Positions 49,147 to 55,027 of a DNA stretch of 64,000 nucleotides are shown piece after piece; position 1 is the stretch's first letter, and every line of letters begins with the position of its first letter. Under the pieces are notes generated by a model. The model searched no databases and was not told the DNA's origin. It worked only from the letters and a program-made list of their open reading frames with translations. Origin of the DNA: an uncultured Bacteroidales bacterium (GTDB lineage: Bacteria; Bacteroidota; Bacteroidia; Bacteroidales; Bacteroidaceae); contig CADCBO010000007.1 of the NCBI GenBank assembly GCA_902799685.1, forward strand, positions 1 through 64,000, given 5' to 3'. Position numbers and translations under genes: made by a program.

Positions 49147-50481
49147 ATGGCAAAGAAGATCGTAGTTTTAGGAGCAGGCGAGAGCGGCACGGGAGCTGCC
49201 ATACTGGCTAAGACCAAAGGCTTTGAAGTGTTTGTCTCTGACCTGTCGGAGATAAAGGATTATTACCGTTCAGAGCTGGAAAGACGCGGCATAGAATGGG
49301 AACAGAAACAGCATACGGAGGAACGTATCCTGGCTGCTGACGAGGTAATAAAGAGTCCGGGCATTCCCAAGGAGGCTCCCATCATACAGAAACTCATGGC
49401 ACAGGGCACTCCCATAATATCGGAGATAGAGTTTGCAGGCCGTTATACCAATGCCAAGATGATTTGCATTACAGGATCCAACGGCAAGACAACCACCACG
49501 TCTCTCATATACCATATATTCAGGATGGCAGGCATGAACGTGGGTCTGGCCGGCAATATAGGCAGCAGTCTGGCCTGGCAGGTGGCCGAGAAAAGCTTTG
49601 ACTACTATGTGATAGAACTGAGCAGTTTTCAGTTGGACAACATGTATGACTTCAAGGCCGATATTGCCATACTCATGAACATAACCCCGGATCATCTGGA
49701 CCGTTATGACCATGAGATGCAGAACTATGTGGATGCCAAGATGAGGGTTATCCGCAACCAGACCAAGGATGATGCGTTTGTCTATTGGAGCGATGATCCC
49801 ATCATAACCCGCGAACTCAAGAGGTACGGACTCAAGGCTACTCTATATCCTTTTGCCGAAGCCAAGAGGGAAGATCTGGCGGCATACGTTGAGGACGGTA
49901 CACTATACTTCAATAAACCGTATGCCTTCAATATGGAACAGGAGTCTCTGGCACTTACTGGTAAGCATAACCTGTACAACTCAATGGCTGCCGGTATATC
50001 GGCCAATATAGCCGGTATCAAGTCTGATACCATCCGTAAGGCGCTGCAGACATTCCAGGGGGTGGAGCATCGTCTGGAACGCGTGACCAGAGTGAACGGG
50101 ATAGACTTTATAAACGACTCCAAGGCTACTAACGTGAACAGTTGCTGGTATGCTTTGCAGAGCATGCCTGTAAAGTGCGTCCTGATACTTGGCGGCAAGG
50201 ATAAGGGTAATGACTACAACGAGATAGCCGACTTGGTACGCGAGAAATGCTGCGGTCTGGTATATATGGGCCTGCATAATGAGAAACTGCATGGCTTCTT
50301 TGACGGGTTCGGTCTTCCGGTGGCCGACGTCCAGTCTATGAAGGATGCCGTGGATGCCGCTTACAGGATGGCTCATAAAGGTGAGATAGTCTTGCTGAGT
50401 CCATGTTGCGCCAGTTTTGACCTGTTCAAAAGCTACGAGGACCGTGGCGACCAGTTCAAGGCTTGCGTAAGAGCTTTATAA
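49147..50481 (+). CDS. murD: UDP-N-acetylmuramoylalanine--D-glutamate ligase
   Basis: A 444-aa Mur ligase adding D-glutamate. N-terminal Rossmann-like VLGAGESGTGAAIL, ATP loop CITGSNGKTTTTSL, ELSSFQLDNM and NITPDHLDRYDHEMQNY blocks, and NDSKATNVNSCWYAL near the C-terminal domain. Order in the cluster (after mraY, before ftsW) is standard. Confidence 0.96.
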   Translation: MAKKIVVLGAGESGTGAAILAKTKGFEVFVSDLSEIKDYYRSELERRGIEWEQKQHTEERILAADEVIKSPGIPKEAPIIQKLMAQGTPIISEIEFAGRYTNAKMICITGSNGKTTTTSLIYHIFRMAGMNVGLAGNIGSSLAWQVAEKSFDYYVIELSSFQLDNMYDFKADIAILMNITPDHLDRYDHEMQNYVDAKMRVIRNQTKDDAFVYWSDDPIITRELKRYGLKATLYPFAEAKREDLAAYVEDGTLYFNKPYAFNMEQESLALTGKHNLYNSMAAGISANIAGIKSDTIRKALQTFQGVEHRLERVTRVNGIDFINDSKATNVNSCWYALQSMPVKCVLILGGKDKGNDYNEIADLVREKCCGLVYMGLHNEKLHGFFDGFGLPVADVQSMKDAVDAAYRMAHKGEIVLLSPCCASFDLFKSYEDRGDQFKACVRAL

Positions 50482-50490
50482 TAGAGGATT

Positions 50491-51774
50491 ATGGAGAGTA
50501 CCGAGGACAAACCCAAACGCAGGCAACTGCTTAACGGAGACCGAACCATATGGGCAATGGTGTTCGTTCTGTGCGCCATATCATTGGTAGAGGTGTTCAG
50601 TGCGAGCAGTCGTCTCACTTTCGGCAAGGAGAGTTTCCTGACACCTATCATATCTCATTCCGTGCATCTTGGCATAGGTTTGGTGGGTATGTACCTGGTG
50701 CACCTGCTCCATTATAAGTGGTATAAGCTGTTCCCGGTATTGCTGGTTCCGCTGTCTGTCATATTGTTGGCTTACCTTTCAGTACAAAGTGCAAGCTCTT
50801 CGGGGGCTGAACGCTGGATTAACATGGGCTTTTTCCAGTTGCAGCCGTCGGAACTGGGCAAGATAGGCGTGATCATGTCGGTAGCTTACTGGCTCTCCAA
50901 ACTGAAACAGGACGATCCGCTGAGCCAGTCCAACACTTTCTGGAAGATAATGGCTCTGACCGGACTGGTGTGTCTGCTTATTGTGGGTGAGAACCTTTCA
51001 ACTGCAGTGTTGCTGGCCGGGGTGATATTCGTTATGATGATATTGGGCGGCATAGCATGGAGACGAATGCTGGCCTTGACCGGAGTGGTGGTAGCGGTAG
51101 GAGTGGTGGCCGTGGTAATACTCCTGTTTGTTCCGGCTCAGACCATACGCGATTCCAGGATAATACCGTCACGTGCCACCACATGGCAGGCCAGATTGCA
51201 GGATTTCTTCCAGCCGGGCAGCGAAGGTGATCCCACCGCATATGATTATGCCAGGACCGTGGCACCTGAGAAACCTCAGGAGACACATGCCAATATTGCG
51301 ATAGCCACAAGCAACATACTGGGTAAGGGACCCGGCAACTCCGATGAACGCGACTATCTGCAGGAGGCCAGTTGTGACTTCATATACGCTATCATAATAG
51401 AGGAACTTGGCATGGTGGGCGGCATATTTGTGATGTTGGTATATATAGTCTTGCTGTTCAGGGTGGGACGTATAGCCACCAGGTGCAAGGAGAAATATCC
51501 GGCCTATCTGGCGATGGGATTGGGTATGCTATTAGGGTTGCAGGCATTCATAAACATGTCGGTGGCGGTGGGGCTGTTCCCAGTGACCGGTCAGCCGCTG
51601 CCGCTTATAAGCAAAGGAGGTACGTCAGTCCTTATGACCAGCGGCTGTATTGGCATGCTTCTGGGTATCAGCAATACATTGGACAGGGAGGCTAACGGTG
51701 ATCATGTATTGGGGATGGAGACTGAGGTGCCTGCACCGATAGACGGCAACGAATCATTTGACGAAAACAACTGA
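50491..51774 (+). CDS. ftsW: Septal peptidoglycan polymerase FtsW (SEDS family)
   Basis: A 427-aa polytopic membrane glycosyltransferase of the SEDS family that works with FtsI at the septum. About ten membrane segments; conserved blocks include GAERWINMGFFQLQPSELGK, LLIVGENLSTAVLLAG (the catalytic Asp region shows E in this motif), EASCDFIYAIIIEELG and GLFPVTGQPLPLISKGGTS. The cytosolic N- and C-terminal tails are polar. Confidence 0.94.
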   Translation: MESTEDKPKRRQLLNGDRTIWAMVFVLCAISLVEVFSASSRLTFGKESFLTPIISHSVHLGIGLVGMYLVHLLHYKWYKLFPVLLVPLSVILLAYLSVQSASSSGAERWINMGFFQLQPSELGKIGVIMSVAYWLSKLKQDDPLSQSNTFWKIMALTGLVCLLIVGENLSTAVLLAGVIFVMMILGGIAWRRMLALTGVVVAVGVVAVVILLFVPAQTIRDSRIIPSRATTWQARLQDFFQPGSEGDPTAYDYARTVAPEKPQETHANIAIATSNILGKGPGNSDERDYLQEASCDFIYAIIIEELGMVGGIFVMLVYIVLLFRVGRIATRCKEKYPAYLAMGLGMLLGLQAFINMSVAVGLFPVTGQPLPLISKGGTSVLMTSGCIGMLLGISNTLDREANGDHVLGMETEVPAPIDGNESFDENN

Positions 51775-51782
51775 CTTTTCAT

Positions 51783-54287
51783 ATGGAGGCAAAACCAAGA
51801 ATCATCATCAGTGGAGGCGGTACAGGAGGACATATCTTCCCCGCCATTTCAATTGCCCATGCCATAAAGGCTATTAACCCCGATGCGGAGATACTGTTTG
51901 TTGGGGCTCAGGGGCGTATGGAGATGCAGCGTGTACCGCAGGCGGGATTCGAGATAAAGGGACTTCCTATCTGTGGGTTTGACCGTAAGAATCCCTTCAA
52001 GAACATTGCGGTGTTGTTCAAAATCATGCGTAGCCAGATTATGGCACGTCGCATAATACGTCAGTTCAAGCCTATGGTAGCTGTTGGTGTGGGCGGTTAC
52101 GCCAGCGGGCCTACATTGAGGATTGCAGGCAAGATGGGTATTCCCACGCTGCTTCAGGAGCAGAACTCATATGCGGGTGTGACCAACAAGATTCTGGCCA
52201 AAAAAGCCGATAAGATATGTGTGGCATACGACGGGATGGAGCGTTTCTTCCCCGCCGACAAGATTATCAAGACAGGTAACCCTGTACGCCCCACCCTGAC
52301 TAAAGGTGGCATAACCCGTAAGGAGGCTGCAAAGAAGATGGGGCTTGATCCTTCCAAACGCATTGTACTCATTGTAGGCGGCAGTCTGGGCGCACGCACA
52401 CTGAATGAAAGCGTGATGGCAAACCTGGACCTGATGCGTATGTCGGATGATGTCCAGTTTGTATGGCAGACAGGAAAGTTCTACTTTGAGGAGATGAAAC
52501 AGCGTCTGGCCGGGCAGCAACCGGTAGAGAACCTGTTCCCTACGGAGTTTGTTCAGGATATGGATCTGGCATACGCTGCCGCCGACCTTGTGATTTCACG
52601 TGCCGGTGCGGGCACAATCTCGGAGCTGTGTCTGCTTGGCAAGCCTGTGATCCTGGTTCCGTCACCCAATGTGGCCGAGGACCATCAGACAAAGAATGCC
52701 TTGGCGCTGGCCGACAAGGACGCGGCAGTCCATATCCGTGATGTGGATGCACGCAGGGAGCTTATACCTGCCGCAGTGGACCTGGTAAAGGATACGGCTC
52801 GTCTGGAGCAGCTGCAAGGAAACATTCTTAAGCTGGCATATCATGATTCGGCCGAGATTATTGCGCATGAGGTTCTCAAACTGGCAGGATACGGAGGCAC
52901 GGCACTTAAGCTTGATGATATAACGTCAGTCTATTTCGTTGGCGCAGGAGGCATAGGGATGAGTGCCCTGGTGCGCTATTTCCTTGCACGCGGATGCAAG
53001 GTGGGCGGTTATGACAGGACATCTACAGAACTTACATCGGCATTGATAAAAGAGGGTGCAGTGATAGGTTTTGAGGATGATGTTGACAAGATTGATGAAT
53101 GCTTCAGGGATCCTGATTCGACGCTTGTGGTATATACCCCGGCCATTCCTGCCGACAACCGTATTTTGCGGTGGTTCAACATCCACTGTTTTGACGTGCA
53201 GAAACGTGCGCAGGTGCTGGGTACACTGACCCGCTCTCTGGATGGCCTGTGTGTGGCCGGTACACATGGCAAGACCACCACATCGTCTATGATTGCGTAT
53301 ATACTTGACGGAACCGAGGAGGGCTGTAACGCATTCCTGGGCGGAATACTGAAGAACATCGGAAGTAATCTCATGATAAGCAGGGATAGCCGGCGTGTGG
53401 TTATTGAGGCTGATGAGTTTGACCGCTCGTTCCATCATCTTACTCCGTTGCGTTCAGTGATAACTGCCGTCGATGCCGACCATCTTGACATATACGGCAC
53501 GTACGATGCTTATGTGGAGAGTTTCCGCAAATATACGTCGCTAATTAAGCCGGGCGGAGACCTGATACTGCACGTAGGGCTGGCCGACAAGATCATGCCA
53601 CAGCTGCAGAAAGGCGTGAACCTGTACACTTACGGCCTGGATGAGGGTTATTTCCATGCAACCAATATCAGGATAGGTAACGGTGAACTTAAGTTTGACT
53701 ATGTGTCACCATTGGGAAGTATTGCCGATGTGGAACTGGGCGTACCCATTCCGATAAATGTGGAGAATGCGGTGGCGGCTATGGCAATGGCTCAACTGAG
53801 CGGAGCACAGGATGAGGTGATACGTGACCGCATGGCCAGTTTCCGCGGATGCGACCGCCGTTTTGACTTTCATGTAAAGAATGATGAAAAGGTATATTTG
53901 AGCGATTACGCCCACCATCCGGAAGAGATACGTCAGTGTGCCCTCTCATTGCGCAAGCTCTATGCGGACCGTAAGATAACCTGCATATTCCAGCCACATC
54001 TCTATACCCGCACAAGGGATTTCTACAATGAGTTTGCCGACAGTCTCTCGTTGTTTGATGAGGTTTGGCTGCTGGAGATTTATCCCGCACGTGAACAGCC
54101 TATCCCAGGCGTGACAAGCAGTCTGCTGGCTGACAATATGAAACCTGGCGTGTGCAAGGGTATAATATCACGCAGCCAGGTGCTTGATACGGTCAGGTCC
54201 ATCAAGGATGATGTACAGGTTCTGGTAACACTGGGTGCAGGCGATCTGGAAGATTATGTTGATTCTATAACAGAGATATTAAAGTAA
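51783..54287 (+). CDS. murG-murC: MurG-MurC fusion: lipid II GlcNAc transferase plus UDP-MurNAc:L-alanine ligase
   Basis: One uninterrupted 834-aa frame. Residues 1 to about 368 are MurG, starting with the G-loop IIISGGGTGGHIFPA, then VGVGGYASGP, LLQEQNSYAG and SRAGAGTISELCLLGKPVI. Residues about 378-834 are MurC: SVYFVGAGGIGMSALVRYFL, ATP loop GTHGKTTTSSM, EADEFDRSF, DADHLDIYGTYDAY and DYAHHPEEIR. The junction (GYGGTALKLDDITS) has no in-frame ATG, GTG or TTG before M393, which lies inside the glycine loop, so MurC cannot start separately here. In related bacteria these are adjacent genes. The fusion would link the last and first steps of precursor synthesis. A lost stop through sequencing error is possible, but the linker is open and of protein-like composition. 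Confidence 0.92.
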   Translation: MEAKPRIIISGGGTGGHIFPAISIAHAIKAINPDAEILFVGAQGRMEMQRVPQAGFEIKGLPICGFDRKNPFKNIAVLFKIMRSQIMARRIIRQFKPMVAVGVGGYASGPTLRIAGKMGIPTLLQEQNSYAGVTNKILAKKADKICVAYDGMERFFPADKIIKTGNPVRPTLTKGGITRKEAAKKMGLDPSKRIVLIVGGSLGARTLNESVMANLDLMRMSDDVQFVWQTGKFYFEEMKQRLAGQQPVENLFPTEFVQDMDLAYAAADLVISRAGAGTISELCLLGKPVILVPSPNVAEDHQTKNALALADKDAAVHIRDVDARRELIPAAVDLVKDTARLEQLQGNILKLAYHDSAEIIAHEVLKLAGYGGTALKLDDITSVYFVGAGGIGMSALVRYFLARGCKVGGYDRTSTELTSALIKEGAVIGFEDDVDKIDECFRDPDSTLVVYTPAIPADNRILRWFNIHCFDVQKRAQVLGTLTRSLDGLCVAGTHGKTTTSSMIAYILDGTEEGCNAFLGGILKNIGSNLMISRDSRRVVIEADEFDRSFHHLTPLRSVITAVDADHLDIYGTYDAYVESFRKYTSLIKPGGDLILHVGLADKIMPQLQKGVNLYTYGLDEGYFHATNIRIGNGELKFDYVSPLGSIADVELGVPIPINVENAVAAMAMAQLSGAQDEVIRDRMASFRGCDRRFDFHVKNDEKVYLSDYAHHPEEIRQCALSLRKLYADRKITCIFQPHLYTRTRDFYNEFADSLSLFDEVWLLEIYPAREQPIPGVTSSLLADNMKPGVCKGIISRSQVLDTVRSIKDDVQVLVTLGAGDLEDYVDSITEILK

Positions 54288-54292
54288 GACAG

Positions 54293-55027
54293 GTGTTCAA
54301 GAAGATTCTTTCCATATTATCAGTTGTTCTCATAGCCGGATATCTGGCATTCTCCCTGATGGGTATGACCGACAGGCATGAGGATATCCGTATATGCAAG
54401 GGGGTGGACCTGCATATAACGGACAGCCTGCATTCTGACATGATAGATGAGGAGATGATCCTGGATTTGCTTAAGGAAAAAATGCTGGATCCTGTAGGTA
54501 AGCCTCTTGACAGGGTTGATGTCATCTCCATTGAGTCCGCTCTTGCCCAGCATCCGCTTGTGGGATCGGCGCAATGTTACAAGACCGGTGGTGACAAGGT
54601 CAGGATAAACCTGTCAAGCAAGATACCTATGGTCAGGGTACTCAACAGCTACGGGCAGGATTTCTATGTGGACAGTCGTGGCGAGATACTGACACAGCAT
54701 TCACTCGCGGTGCAACTGCCTGTTGCTACCGGATACATAGACAGGCGTTTTGCATCGGAAGACCTTCTGAAAGTGGTTCGTGCCATAGATGAATCTGAAT
54801 TCTGGAAAGCCCAGGTGGAGCAGATAGACGTGACTAAAGAAGGACAGATACAGCTTGTACCAAGGGTAGGAGACCATCTGCTTGTACTTGGCACTGCCGA
54901 TGATGTGGAGAACAAGCTGGACCGTCTTATGAATTTCTATGAGAAAGGTCTGGACAACGTGGGTTGGAACAAATATCGTACCATTAGCGTGGCGTACGAT
55001 AATCAGGTTGTTTGTAAAAAACGATAA
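54293..55027 (+). CDS. ftsQ: Cell division protein FtsQ
   Basis: A 244-aa bitopic membrane protein. Starts with GTG (54293), chosen because the hydrophobic segment KKILSILSVVLIAGYLAFSLM follows directly. The periplasmic part includes a POTRA-like region (ITDSLHSDMIDEEMILDLL, SIESALAQHPLVGSAQCYK) and the beta domain. It links early and late divisome parts. Nothing else of note; ftsA follows after 8 bp. Confidence 0.92.
   Translation: MFKKILSILSVVLIAGYLAFSLMGMTDRHEDIRICKGVDLHITDSLHSDMIDEEMILDLLKEKMLDPVGKPLDRVDVISIESALAQHPLVGSAQCYKTGGDKVRINLSSKIPMVRVLNSYGQDFYVDSRGEILTQHSLAVQLPVATGYIDRRFASEDLLKVVRAIDESEFWKAQVEQIDVTKEGQIQLVPRVGDHLLVLGTADDVENKLDRLMNFYEKGLDNVGWNKYRTISVAYDNQVVCKKR

Follow-up and report, generated by a model that had tools for sequence, protein, structure and literature searches.

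Comparative evidence for an old murG-murC gene fusion in one genus of Bacteroidales

Sequence comparison across one genus of Bacteroidales indicates that murG and murC are joined there in a real and old gene fusion, and that the join is not a sequence error. In the window, by which we mean the whole analysed stretch of 64,000 nucleotides (contig CADCBO010000007.1, positions 1 to 64,000, of the uncultured Bacteroidales assembly GCA_902799685.1), translation gives a single unbroken frame on the forward strand at 51783-54287, with 834 codons and one terminal stop and a computed protein mass of 91.7 kDa. The gene most probably encodes one bifunctional polypeptide in which an N-terminal MurG is tethered to a C-terminal MurC, a reading to which we assign a probability of roughly 0.83. 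The one-frame MurG-MurC fusion of the original prediction is thus borne out, with a single 834-residue frame that matches both families and is found in 31/37 genomes of the genus.

One frame and two enzyme families

The fused gene and its immediate neighbours are laid out as follows, with the coordinates of the window.

50491..51774, + strand: ftsW-like upstream neighbour, separate (ORF; same order in 37/37 genus loci)
51783..52886, + strand: MurG part, lipid II synthase of the GT28 family, residues 1-368 (TIGR01133, PF03033, PF04101, motifs)
52887..52919, + strand: linker, residues 369-379, about 11 residues, without a stop and without ATG, GTG or TTG
52920..54284, + strand: MurC part, UDP-MurNAc:L-alanine ligase, residues 380-834 (TIGR01082, PF01225, PF08245, PF02875, alignment with solved MurC, motifs)
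54285..54287, + strand: sole stop codon of the fused gene
54293..55027, + strand: ftsQ-like downstream neighbour, separate (ORF; matched in 37/37 genus loci)

Profile searches recover both families. The NCBIfam murG model (TIGR01133) matches residues 5-362 at full length and above its cut-off (282.4 bits vs. 250.25), while the murC model (TIGR01082) matches residues 383-825 over profile positions 2-444 of 449 and reaches 321.7 bits against a cut-off of 335.1. This shortfall is probably no sign of decay, because three of four separate MurC proteins from the same family also fall below the cut-off (306.7-333.9 bits, with one above it at 347.3); two other fused proteins score 325.2 and 346.3 bits and a more distant Bacteroidetes MurC scores 384.2 bits. 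Both glycosyltransferase-28 domains (PF03033, PF04101) and all three Mur ligase domains (PF01225, PF08245, PF02875) exceed their Pfam cut-offs. The MurC part aligns nearly end to end with solved MurC chains, for example 1gqq and 9ir5, and solved MurG chains match the MurG part over residues 6-319.

Fused and split genomes in the genus and the order

A search of all 37 genomes of the genus, with ORFs checked, found an unbroken murG-murC in 31 genomes and two adjacent genes in the other six (G001, G018, G024, G027, G030, and G032). In these split genomes the two genes lie in different frames, separated by or sharing just a few bases, and murC has an ATG start. Close relatives with separate genes were not found: every one of the 19 genomes nearest to the window's own (87-91% protein identity) has the fusion, and the six split members are more distant. 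Fused genomes include MAGs from horse faeces (G016, JAKSIU010000010.1) and from water buffalo caecum (G035, JAFYMP010000044.1), both labelled Bacteroidaceae.

A single fusion event inside the genus is the most likely origin, and two origins are unlikely, because a tree of flanking genes groups all 31 fused genomes. This tree, built from seven flanking dcw proteins of 40 genomes (2908 columns, LG+G4 without a mixture model), places the fused genomes in one clade (support 94/93; recovered in 96% of 200 bootstrap trees) and the six split genomes outside it in two groups; it carries a long-branch warning for two outgroups and an odd letter make-up in one split genome. A quick tree of MurG plus MurC did not place the pair G003/G035 and required two changes. 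These two genomes have the most divergent linkers among the fused ones. When the fused rows were constrained together, the MurG plus MurC likelihood rose 16.7 log units above that of the free quick tree, and this topology was not rejected (p-AU 0.854).

The two genes are usually separate in relatives, as the original prediction stated, and this holds for nearly all other genomes among the matches listed for our family, order, and phylum samples. An even family sample of 201 genomes included 12 of this genus, nine of them fused, and the 189 genomes outside the genus (two of them without any match) gave no unbroken match among the matches listed. In an even phylum sample of 395 genomes, only the window's own genome was unbroken among the matches listed. 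An even order sample of 393 genomes, read at E <= 1e-160, where long-linker fusions with a split match are missed, yielded six unbroken cases, namely G000 (the window's genome), G805 in family f145, G809 in f150, G665 in f105, and both G700 and G800 in f140. Searches of these families found fusions in 12/45 genomes of f145 (10 by search and G1006 and G1022 by ORF check, with 2/45 lacking a match at threshold), 1/3 of f150, 2/2 of f140, and 1/1 of f105. With the fused ORFs outside the genus verified, the total comes to 47 fused genomes in five Bacteroidales families. Matches of 838-1007 residues in other genera resembled further fusions, but at all 16 checked loci (L060-L067, L160-L167) the genes are separate, with a stop between them that the frame listing reads through.

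The loci L214, L215, L250, L251, and L252 are MurG-MurC fusions in four other families, and the linkers of the fusions beyond the genus differ widely. A quick, single-locus tree of MurG plus MurC that extends beyond the genus (92 rows, with 16/31 fused genus members and 32/89 inner branches unsupported) implies at least 14 changes between fused and separate states, in either direction (gain or loss), 10 of which are required by strongly supported branches. Within f145, fused loci (L216-L225, L231, L232) are interleaved with separate ones (L230, L234-L249), which suggests that the fusion has often been gained or lost in that family, and MAG errors could inflate its change count. One f145 bin, G1022, contains both a fused gene (L232, G1022:C139) and a separate pair (L235, G1022:C79) at a listed contamination of 6 and may be a mixed bin. 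The simplest reading of these sequences is that the fusions beyond the genus arose independently and by different changes. The L231 locus is an 889-codon fused ORF on the reverse strand whose linker consists of a short peptide repeated in tandem, which looks like the expansion of a repeat in a former intergenic region.

Proposed tether, neighbourhood, and junction

We propose that the fusion began with a minor mutation where murG and murC lay side by side or overlapped, which abolished the stop of murG and brought both genes into one frame, and that loss of the murC start codon then locked the fusion in, because from then on a stop anywhere in the linker would cost the cell its MurC. Both halves would remain active and work independently on a tether of about 11 residues; in physical terms, the cell would make MurG and MurC in equal amounts and keep MurC beside MurG at the membrane. 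The fused gene most likely encodes no more than this, two enzymes that act independently while tethered together, in an arrangement made permanent once the start of murC was lost.

The original prediction also suggested that the fused enzyme might channel or co-localise the synthesis of wall precursors. MurC carries out the first amino-acid ligation, which forms UDP-MurNAc-L-Ala in the cytosol at an early stage, whereas MurG makes lipid II in the last step and at the membrane. No intermediate could pass directly from MurC to MurG, since one step is early and the other final. Among the 20 closest genomes, the linker (residues 368-379) has a pN/pS of 0.27 and 193/204 12-codon windows are more constrained, values that are rough because dS exceeds 1 among the genomes compared. 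Channelling is therefore unsupported, both because most of the protein is under tighter constraint than the linker and because the reactions are non-consecutive, as a passage of PMC6420597 also states for MurG/MurC fusions. Co-localisation of MurC with the membrane-associated MurG would be an expected consequence of the fusion.

The neighbourhood of the gene bears on why this particular pair was joined. Gene order at the locus is murE-mraY-murD-ftsW-murG-murC-ftsQ-ftsA-ftsZ, where names other than murG and murC are our assumption from family knowledge and position, and it is the same in 37/37 genus loci (ftsZ is out of reach in one). A stop or a different frame separates ftsW from murG and murC from ftsQ at all 37 loci. 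All 31 fused genomes join murG to murC, and at none of these loci is any of the other seven dcw neighbour pairs fused (one ftsA-ftsZ pair is unscorable); in the six split genomes none of the eight neighbouring pairs is fused. Across 80 named Bacteroidota loci and five other fused loci, murG-murC is again the only pair fused where scorable; the named loci were chosen by similarity to the fused protein, which biases them toward same-frame murG-murC, and many of their murE-mraY pairs are out of reach. Two of these 80 loci belong to the genus, and these are the two fused ones. Within the dcw order, murG and murC are the chief example of adjacent genes that both encode soluble enzymes, as the other pairs except ftsA-ftsZ include membrane proteins. 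This status may explain the specificity for murG-murC without any gain from channelling. A membrane-protein partner is no absolute bar to fusion, since ftsW/murG and MraY/MurG fusions in other bacteria are reported in passages of PMC6420597 and PMC4929429.

Selection could instead keep the fusion for membrane co-localisation of MurC with MurG and for fixed stoichiometry. Recurrence of the same fused pair in five Bacteroidales families fits this idea, as do the lack of any other fused dcw pair where scorable (37 genus loci, 80 named, and five other fused loci) and the proposal, in a passage of PMC6420597, that MurG serves as a scaffold for Mur enzymes. We nevertheless regard it as rather unlikely, given that the choice of pair may stem from the soluble-neighbour status just described, that the linker is weakly constrained, and that the interleaving of fused and split loci in f145 suits easy neutral gain and loss. 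Somewhat more doubtful still is the stronger form of the idea, that the fusions are convergent because they are useful, with MurC tied to membrane-bound MurG in a mini precursor assembly that keeps its output in step with the demand for lipid II.

Another possibility is that a separate MurC is still made, through a rare internal start or cleavage of the linker, in which case the two enzymes would be fused in name only. In the window, neither a stop nor ATG, GTG, or TTG occurs in the 36 codons that lead up to the glycine loop of MurC, and the first possible start is Met393 (ATG, 52959-52961), which lies inside that loop; our codon scan thus confirms the earlier statement that no in-frame ATG, GTG, or TTG precedes residue 393 near the junction. 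Some start codon occurs within residues 364-382 in 20/31 fused genomes, but sporadically: 14 of the 20 have GTG at Val364 of a MurG helix, where other genomes use different codons. Among relatives the linker differs in sequence and, to a small extent, in length. An ATG falls within the linker in 3/31 fused genomes, and among the fusions elsewhere an ATG stands shortly before MurC in L215, L216, L251, and L252, with none near in L231 and L250. From their sequences, L215, L251, and L252 may have arisen by stop loss and may still allow MurC to be started on its own. A hidden start is likewise favoured by the six codons that begin at residue 367, immediately before MurC, where the synonymous rate, counted per synonymous site, is low (rank 27 of 826, lowest first), whereas from residue 373 it is high (the 12-codon window ranks 791 of 820). 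This test is weak, because the rate is low just upstream of MurC and the true gene start is itself just slightly depressed (rank 79 of 826 with six-codon windows and 235 of 820 with twelve). We consider a separate MurC improbable overall, and its production from a linker start unlikely, mainly because no start codon is conserved at any linker position among the 31 fused genus genomes. Two further features of synonymous change among the 20 closest genomes lie outside the linker, a low stretch at 52839-52862 (residues 353-360) and the lowest 12-codon window at 53397-53432 (residues 539-550), for which we found no cause.

It is very improbable that one half is inactive and the other does all the work. 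The motifs GGTGGH, QEQN, RAGA..SE, and DHQ..NA, which we take to be the conserved MurG motifs with roles as generally understood, are present in the window and throughout the 31 fused genomes, with conservative variants in L006, L016, L023, L024, and L025. The presumed MurC motifs, namely the glycine loop, GTHGKT, EADE, DADH, DYAHHP, and FQPH, whose roles we likewise assume, are found in 31/31. Apparent missing motif residues in fused genomes were mostly the product of overly strict patterns, judging from the stretches that were read. The only observation that could be set in favour of a dead half is in L006, where Asn replaces the Asp of the MurG DHQ motif and HQ..NA is kept. Against it, pN/pS among the 20 closest genomes is similarly low in MurG (0.12) and MurC (0.11), as rough values at these distances, and the search of the window's own genome (2.81 Mb, 37 contigs, 85.8% complete) recovered neither gene a second time, the sole other match lying within a murD-like ORF at 49345-50094. 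Nor was a second full murG or murC found in any of the 31 fused genus genomes, although most of them are incomplete (85.8% for G000), which leaves a small chance of a missed copy.

A sequencing or assembly error, such as a missing base or a missed stop that merged two genes in this fragmented assembly of 37 contigs, is refuted because 30 other genomes of the genus carry the same unbroken junction at 69-91% protein identity, and the linker differences are whole codons, with the linker pN/pS given above.

Relation to known fusions and meaning

The arrangement of murG first and murC second in one open frame agrees with the fusion of the actinomycete C. gilvus, which is written murG/murC in a figure legend of a 2016 review (PMC4929429). 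The fused architecture is therefore real in the window but not new. The C. gilvus case involves the same two enzymes in the same written order, from adjacent dcw genes, but it belongs to another phylum and is known here from that legend, whereas the Bacteroidales fusion is common to 31 genomes of one genus with tree support for one origin. Other fusions pair different enzymes. MurE-MurF fusions occur in some proteobacteria and bacteroidetes according to a passage of the same review (PMC4929429), and the MurE-MurF protein of Bordetella pertussis, as described in part of PMC6420597, likewise joins two peptidoglycan precursor enzymes from adjacent dcw genes in one polypeptide, but its enzymes are others, catalyse consecutive steps, and have been studied biochemically. 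In passages of PMC4803751, Verrucomicrobium spinosum MurB/MurC similarly unites MurC with a wall-precursor enzyme in some lineages only, with MurC instead at the N terminus, MurB as partner, and a linker of about 100 residues; Chlamydia trachomatis MurC/Ddl is also a two-enzyme MurC fusion, with Ddl as the partner. We found no description of Bacteroidales MurG-MurC fusions or of their recurrence among the matches listed from the open-licence PubMed Central literature, nor any mention in passages of PMC8092295 and PMC8871954.

The architecture was thus already known, and it is the Bacteroidales cases and their recurrence for which the listed papers yielded no account. These cases provide a naturally occurring fusion of non-consecutive wall enzymes that has persisted for a long time, in a genus where fused genomes stand beside split ones, and with more examples elsewhere in the order. 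The old idea of a cytoplasmic Mur complex scaffolded by MurG could accordingly be put to a comparative and experimental test on near-identical fused and split enzymes. The fusion also matters for annotation, as MurG and MurC are essential drug targets that are usually taken to be separate proteins.
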